A stretch of DNA of 50,660 nucleotides from Candidatus Woesebacteria bacterium GW2011_GWA1_39_21. GTDB taxonomy: Bacteria > Patescibacteriota > Microgenomatia > UBA8517. The translations under genes were made by a program, and so were the position numbers. Position 1 is the first letter of the stretch; each line of letters begins with the position of its first letter. The stretch spans positions 1-50,660 of the forward strand of contig LBWP01000005.1 in the NCBI GenBank assembly GCA_000993685.1, given 5' to 3'. Shown here piece after piece: positions 33,782 through 35,310 of the stretch. The notes under the pieces are model-generated. The model ran no database searches and was not told the DNA's origin. It saw only the letters and a list, made by a program, of their open reading frames with translations.

Positions 33782-33946
33782 TTTATTCAAACCCCCTGAA
33801 AACCGTGGACTTCTTAGTCCACGGATGAAAAGGAGGAATGATCAAATGGTTCGGCCAGCTCACCATCCTGAGTAAAACTGAAGGACTTGTTGAGCCCAAA
33901 GGACCGAGAATACCGACGGCTTCTAGCCCTCGGTAGTTTATTCAAC
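33782..33946 (+). mobile_element. IS200/IS605-like non-autonomous element / orphan TnpB omega-RNA (reRNA)-like sequence
   Basis: Direct repeat TTTATTCAA at 33782-33790 and 33937-33945; hairpin CCGTGGAC-TTCTTA-GTCCACGG (33803-33824); right-end hairpin TACCGAcGGC-TTCTA-GCCcTCGGTA (33911-33935) followed by TTTATTCAAC; GCTCA...TGAGTAAAACTGAAGGACTTGTTGAGCCCAAAGGACCGAGAATACCGACGG resembles IS605 3'-end RNA scaffolds. Confidence 0.65.
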
Positions 33947-33953
33947 CTTCTTG

Positions 33954-34024
33954 TCGGGGTGGGCAGAATTGAACTGCCGCCGGACGCACCCCATGCGCCC
34001 ATTCTACCGTTAAACTACACCCCG
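33954..34024 (-). tRNA. tRNA-Pro(GGG), no encoded CCA
   Basis: Reverse strand: CGGGGTG acceptor/CACCCCG; anticodon stem GGCGC/GCGTC with loop ATGGGGT; T-arm GGCAG TTCAATT CTGCC; discriminator A; C1-G72. Confidence 0.9.
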
Positions 34025-34137: not shown

Positions 34138-35310
34138 ATGTATTTTTATACTACGCTTCTAGCACAAGTCAGAAACCCTCTTTTTTCATCAGATTATAGT
34201 GGTTACAACAGTGGTGGATGGGGGTACTTTAACATAACTATCCAAAACATCATAAATGTTGGTTTTATAATTGCCGCCGTTATTTTTGTTATTATTTTTA
34301 TTGTCGGTGCTTTCCAGTGGATTACTGCTGGGGGTGATAAGGGGAAATTATCTGAAGCAAAAGGGAAGATCACACATGTGATTATTGGACTTATTGTCCT
34401 TCTTTTAATTTTCTTGATTATCCAGTTTGTGAATTATGTTTTAGGAATTAATATTGGGATGTTTGGAGCGCCGCCGGGAAATAACCGTACGGCATACGAT
34501 TTTACTCCGGGCGCAACCCTACCGATTGCAACTAGTACTTTAACGGTTGTGTTAACAAATACACCAGTTCCAACATCTACTCCAACGGGAACCCCAGTTC
34601 CAACCAGGGTTCCAACATCCACTCCAACCAATGTACCAATTCCGACATCAACCAACACTCCAATTCCTACCTCAACAAATACCCCAGTTCCAACCAGGGT
34701 TCCAACATCCACTCCAACCAATGTACCAATTCCGACATCAACTCCGCTTCCCACAGTAACTCCGATATTGGCGTTTTGTTCTGACACTGATACCGGGGTA
34801 GATTCCGAGAATATCGGTACGGTTGCAGAAAATTCATCTTCAGGTGTCGTCCAATACCACACCGATTTTTGTTATTCGCTTTCATCCCTGAATGAATACT
34901 TCTGTAGTTCATCAACGAACTACTCTTCAACTTTGATTAGTTGTTCTGATATAAGAGCTAATTCAGCCTGTCAAAACGGTGAGTGTTGCTCTGTTCCAAA
35001 CACAGCCTGTTTGACGGACTCTGATTGTTGCTTGCCATACGTTTGTAATTCCGGGAGGTGTCAAAGCTCAGGTAACATATTGTTAAATCAAGCGGCGAGC
35101 GTAAGCTGCAGAAATTATTGTCTGGACAGTGGCTTTTCCGGTTGTTCTAGCATTGGAACAGACACTGCAGGAACGAACGGTATGGCAACTCTTTACCAGT
35201 CTGGAAGTTGTGTAACCACAAATACTTATGACTGCTTTACCGTCTTATACAACCAAGGTGTTGTTTGTAGTGGATTTTTGGCTAATTGGACATACTGTCG
35301 GTGTTTTTAA
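34138..35310 (+). CDS. Pilin-like two-TM protein (T4SS_pilin-like) with P/T-rich repeats and Cys-rich extracellular domain
   Basis: TM segments around IINVGFIIAAVIFVIIFIVGAFQWITAGGDKGKLSEAKGKITHVIIGLIVLLLIFLIIQFV; PTSTPTNVPIPTSTNTP repeats; CLTDSDCCLPYVCNSGRC. Confidence 0.7.
   Translation: MYFYTTLLAQVRNPLFSSDYSGYNSGGWGYFNITIQNIINVGFIIAAVIFVIIFIVGAFQWITAGGDKGKLSEAKGKITHVIIGLIVLLLIFLIIQFVNYVLGINIGMFGAPPGNNRTAYDFTPGATLPIATSTLTVVLTNTPVPTSTPTGTPVPTRVPTSTPTNVPIPTSTNTPIPTSTNTPVPTRVPTSTPTNVPIPTSTPLPTVTPILAFCSDTDTGVDSENIGTVAENSSSGVVQYHTDFCYSLSSLNEYFCSSSTNYSSTLISCSDIRANSACQNGECCSVPNTACLTDSDCCLPYVCNSGRCQSSGNILLNQAASVSCRNYCLDSGFSGCSSIGTDTAGTNGMATLYQSGSCVTTNTYDCFTVLYNQGVVCSGFLANWTYCRCF
34591..34742 (+). 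repeat. 62-bp direct repeat with 90-bp period inside the P/T-rich linker
   Basis: ACCCCAGTTCCAACCAGGGTTCCAACATCCACTCCAACCAATGTACCAATTCCGACATCAAC at 34591-34652 and 34681-34742, identical. Confidence 0.95.

Follow-up and report, generated by a model that had tools for sequence, protein, structure and literature searches.

Palindrome-associated transposable elements (PATEs) have been defined for Haloquadratum walsbyi (PMC3119063). Published work on the IS200/IS605 elements, of which PMC7290912 summarizes a part, describes the binding of hairpins, the pairing of guide bases, and the excision of a single strand; the single-strand circle is described in PMC6006769 as well. REPs and REPINs with their RAYT transposases (PMC2817692, PMC3116915) are a further described system. 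The locus compared with these systems lies in the window, a 50,660-nucleotide stretch of contig LBWP01000005.1 from Candidatus Woesebacteria bacterium GW2011_GWA1_39_21 (G000). It harbors a miniature element of 155 bp without coding capacity (33787–33941, plus strand) that has been delimited by a 41-copy alignment, junction analysis, and a covariance model. The element is very probably a non-autonomous IS200/IS605-type element of the PATE type that is moved in trans by a TnpA of the IS200 clade. A description of such elements in Patescibacteria was not found in the open-licence literature, and a literature search with the nucleotide string of the middle segment gave no match.

Boundaries and anatomy of the element

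The element is preceded by the pentanucleotide TTTAT (33782–33786), which is flanking DNA and represents the target and the putative left cleavage site, as indicated by the single TTTAT in restored genes and by nested insertions. TTTATTCAAA is read directly at 33782. The left subterminal hairpin SL1 (CCGTGGACT-TCTT-AGTCCACGG, 33803–33824) follows the guide-like bases GAAAA and is supported by covariation in the 41 copies. The right subterminal hairpin SL2 (GAGAATACC...GGTAG, 33911–33935) has a guide-like GAA upstream and is supported by covariation and by the right-end design of IS200-type elements; it is imperfect and followed by GTTTATTCAAC. The right end and putative right cleavage site is TTTAT (33937–33941), which is near-invariant in the copies and fits the right junction from restored reading frames. 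All of these features, including the middle hairpin (33858–33895), lie on the plus strand. The original prediction had described a non-coding module of about 155 bp with a left hairpin and an imperfect right hairpin, both of which are read directly in the sequence. Its interval (33782–33946) starts with the TTTAT target and runs too far at the other end, as the element stops at 33941 and the last five bases (TCAAC) are flank.

The element strand folds far better than shuffled sequences (DNA z −4.5, RNA z −5.1, 0/200 shuffles) and takes on three hairpins. GCTCA (33858–33862) and TGAGC (33891–33895), which had been proposed to form a pseudoknot, instead close the middle hairpin as a nested stem in both DNA and RNA folding. 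This hairpin is restricted to the long subfamily and is missing from shorter relatives. The covariance model, built from 41 copies that include the window copy, finds one site in the whole window (33782–33941, 91.8 bits). Near-terminal palindromes are present and terminal inverted repeats are absent in the 41-copy alignment and in folding. Family members measure about 100–180 bp and, as predicted, contain neither tnpA nor tnpB.

The core plan of the family begins after TTTAT and reads TCAAACTTCGC-GAA[A/T]ACC-hairpin 1-GGATGAA-GCGAAG-CAGTGAACAAACTTG-small stem-GAA[A/T]ACC-hairpin 2-GGT[A/T]GTTTAT. Core-form copies are mostly 100–118 bp long; the window copy belongs to a longer subfamily in which the GCTCA...TGAGC hairpin is an insertion relative to this form. 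Four helices covary strongly across the 41 aligned copies. Paired cells amount to 90.8% compared with 34–47% when the partners are slid, a control that somewhat favors the structure because it was drawn from the same sequences, which does not explain the double changes. Both sides have changed in 20 of 27 pairs, and the covariation score is 0.50 versus about 0.09 for the control. SL1 (94% of cells paired, changes on both sides in 6/8 pairs) and the main stem of SL2 (95%, 7/8 pairs) are individually well supported. In several copies (L232, L241, and L254 from G115 and G099, and L231 from G088), the left guide region recurs in the middle in reverse-complementary form (AGAAAACCC / GGGTTTTCT), and this pair appears to change together between copies in some subfamilies.

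The gene for tRNA-Pro(GGG) (33953–34024, minus strand), located by ARAGORN and Rfam, is only a neighbor. It is the sole match of the Rfam search, and a tRNA adjoins the element in 2 of 59 loci examined. The adjacency is incidental, and the 3' edge of the tRNA gene that had been proposed as a guide is without support. Elsewhere in the window, repeats at 34540–34740 encode a Pro/Thr-rich stretch in an ORF (34138–35310).

Dispersion, target, and insertion junctions

The search for related copies that had been suggested with the original prediction was productive. In its own genome, the element gives 23 BLAST matches, of which seven, all to other copies, are 80–87% identical over at least 96 bp. 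At least 18 left ends are found there, and the reversed control pattern has no match. The BLAST copies, this excess of left ends over the control, and the one covariance-model site show that the family is not a product of chance. Left ends occur in 8 of 52 family genomes. An exact degenerate scan of the GTDB representatives yields 22 loci, all from Patescibacteria (Woesebacteria, Levybacteria, Daviesbacteria, Blackburnbacteria, a Microgenomatus MAG, and one WWE3). The covariance model matches 17 of 294 phylum genomes (E <= 1e-4); in some of these matches the outer stem is wholly different while the plan is the same, and one weak match (L258) was not borne out on inspection, as the stretch examined there does not resemble an element. 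The family is missing from most relatives. In viral contigs and phages, neither an exact left end nor any phage match was obtained, a motif scan of three loose viral-contig matches found no matching left end, and a TnpA search of the viral contigs was likewise negative.

Removal of the element restores the reading frames of three unrelated genes in relatives, leaving a single TTTAT and no target duplication. The first gene encodes a four-helix-bundle protein that covers positions 1–106 of the 106 in profile PF05635 and aligns to a solved relative without a gap at the junction. The second is fpg/mutM, and the third is RAYT-like, although that fragment has no Pfam match. The same junction with one shared TTTAT is seen in nested insertions, and in G000 the ..GTTTAT of an older, related element is directly followed by family copies. 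Some copies are found at TCTAT, GTTAT, TTAAT, or TTTAG, and the target statistics are biased by searches that used TTTAT-containing patterns.

Two additional families are related to that of the window element (family A). The second has the same plan, with GAATTCATCTGCGAAAACCACGG...GTGGTAGTTTATT following TTTATT (L036 at about 55.9–56.1 kb of G000:C1, L039 on G000:C28, L043, and L044), and family A has inserted twice into its right end. The third (AACAGCGTTCAAGAAAACCCC-hairpin-GGGGATGAATTGAAC) begins directly after the GTTTAT of family A copies (L049 and L041, on G000:C17 and G000:C8).

Genome G011 contains five copies that are 96–100% identical and occupy different sites, from which it follows that the family moved recently. 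The copies in G000 are more diverged, with the window copy being 78–86% identical to its nearest relatives there. As no full-length IS200-type tnpA was found in G000, the family may now be inactive in this genome.

Candidate transposase and rival explanations

The mover of the family is most likely a separate IS200-type transposase. A complete IS200-type element resides inside a UPF0182 gene of one carrier (G042) and encodes a TnpA of 155 aa (PF01797, 123 bits) whose PDB relatives include ISHp608 TnpA (2a6m). It has TTTAT at the left and the right end GATACC-hairpin-GGTAGTTCATT, which is the design of the mini-element. The left ends match in the hairpin and TTTAT only. The junction of the G042 element is one base off perfect frame restoration if the cut is placed at TTCAT, which counts against the assignment to such a TnpA. 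The right-end design recurs next to TnpA homologs (44–58% identity for the closest, plasmid-borne ones) from Kovacikia, Chroococcidiopsis, Pantoea, Pseudanabaena, and Nitrosomonas, with partial versions in Megaera, Synechocystis, and Piscirickettsia; most of the close homologs in Cyanobacteria and Pseudomonadota have such right ends. The design is absent from three distant IS200/IS605 elements (ISEfa4, B. subtilis, and Klebsiella). No autonomous element was found whose two ends are both a close match to the subfamily of the window copy, a further point against this assignment. The dispersed copies, the restoration of empty sites with a single TTTAT, and the right end shared with an IS200-type element that encodes tnpA together support the non-autonomous IS200/IS605 reading, one of the two that the original prediction had offered.

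By analogy, a Y1 HUH transposase of the IS200 TnpA clade would be supplied in trans and would bind the left and right subterminal hairpins as single-stranded DNA. The guide-like bases may pair with the cleavage sites. Cleavage behind the TTTAT of either end would release a single-stranded circle, and its insertion 3' of a TTTAT elsewhere would leave the target unduplicated.

Several other partners were considered and rejected. The IS605 (tnpA plus tnpB) of carrier G062 has unrelated ends, the IS200 tnpA of G578 (L259) is associated with other hairpins, and the RAYT genes have other palindromes at their flanks. A Y1-SH3 gene is not convincing as a marker of the family (3 of 8 carriers versus about 9 of 52 genomes). 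It encodes the only Y1 match in G000, a RAYT-like protein (453 aa, 34 bits) that carries an SH3 domain at its C-terminus and is possibly a domesticated RAYT. The gene (L046:4066–6074, G000:C13) is followed by a 216-aa gene without a Pfam match, and similar genes are found in G011 and G019. Loci L081–L107 show Microgenomatia RAYT-like genes flanked by their own palindromes, which differ from gene to gene.

Movement as a REP/REPIN-like element by RAYT-like Y1 proteins, the common Y1 type in these genomes and including the Y1-SH3 protein, is improbable. The Y1 genes seen in G000, and also in G011 with its near-identical copies, are all RAYT-like, which speaks for this alternative and against movement by a TnpA. 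Completeness is 97% (G011) and 92% (G000), so that a tnpA may have been lost or may simply have escaped assembly. The different palindromes that flank the RAYT-like genes of carriers argue against the RAYT alternative, as do the hairpin order and right end, which fit IS200-type tnpA elements, and the limited overlap of the long Y1-SH3 form with the carriers. A guide RNA domesticated from TnpB (or IscB), or else an orphan omega-RNA, with the flanking DNA serving as guide, is extremely improbable. A structured right end beside flanking DNA is the general form of an IS605 right end, and covariation would fit an RNA too. The PF07282 profile, however, has no match in G000 and finds TnpB in no more than 14 of the 385 genomes of the class, with none of those loci bearing these ends or a matching scaffold. 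All elements found to share such ends encode tnpA without tnpB (IS200 type), the mini-element has no Rfam match, and its dispersed copies have many unrelated flanks; this part of the original prediction is not supported.

Conservation of the GAACAAACTTG segment between the hairpins in diverged subfamilies and deep compensatory change would also suit an element of benefit to the host, either a structured RNA or a transcription terminator, whose spread by transposition was secondary. This explanation is highly improbable, as copies interrupt genes and most relatives lack the family, which is as expected of a parasite. Within the preferred reading of a TnpA-mobilized element, both the GAACAAACTTG segment and P1, the outer stem, show more conservation than a plain deletion derivative needs, which counts against it. 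It is rather unlikely that the segment joins the covarying outer stem in a structure (DNA or RNA) dedicated to recognition or regulation, by which mini-elements would gain the advantage over the autonomous parents and survive in genomes that retain no IS200-type tnpA.

Comparison with known systems

The element represents a new PATE-type family in Patescibacteria, a mobile element of a kind already known. These reduced genomes thereby gain a mobile family that has no transposase of its own but a defined target and a plausible clade of transposases, and the structural family of 41 aligned copies with compensatory hairpin changes lends itself to the study of Y1 hairpin recognition. One candidate RNA-guided system is removed from consideration.

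REPs and REPINs resemble the family in being short palindromes that are dispersed and linked to Y1 proteins. In contrast to them, the mini-element inserts at a defined site (TTTAT) and has left and right ends in direct orientation with cleavage-like sites, and its ends do not match those of local RAYT genes. The IS200-type elements of the Kovacikia/Pantoea/G042 TnpA clade share the right end [GA]ATACC-hairpin-GG[T/A]NGTT[TC]ATT and, in the G042 copy, TTTAT at the left; they differ in that they encode tnpA, have left ends that diverge outside of the hairpin, and reach a total of about 575 bp in G042. PATEs likewise lack terminal inverted repeats, possess near-terminal palindromes related to IS605-type transposons, cause no target duplication, and are too short to hold a transposase. 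They belong to another domain of life and differ in sequence and target, and the patescibacterial element is distinguished from them by the extra outer stem (P1) around its left hairpin and by its conserved internal segment.
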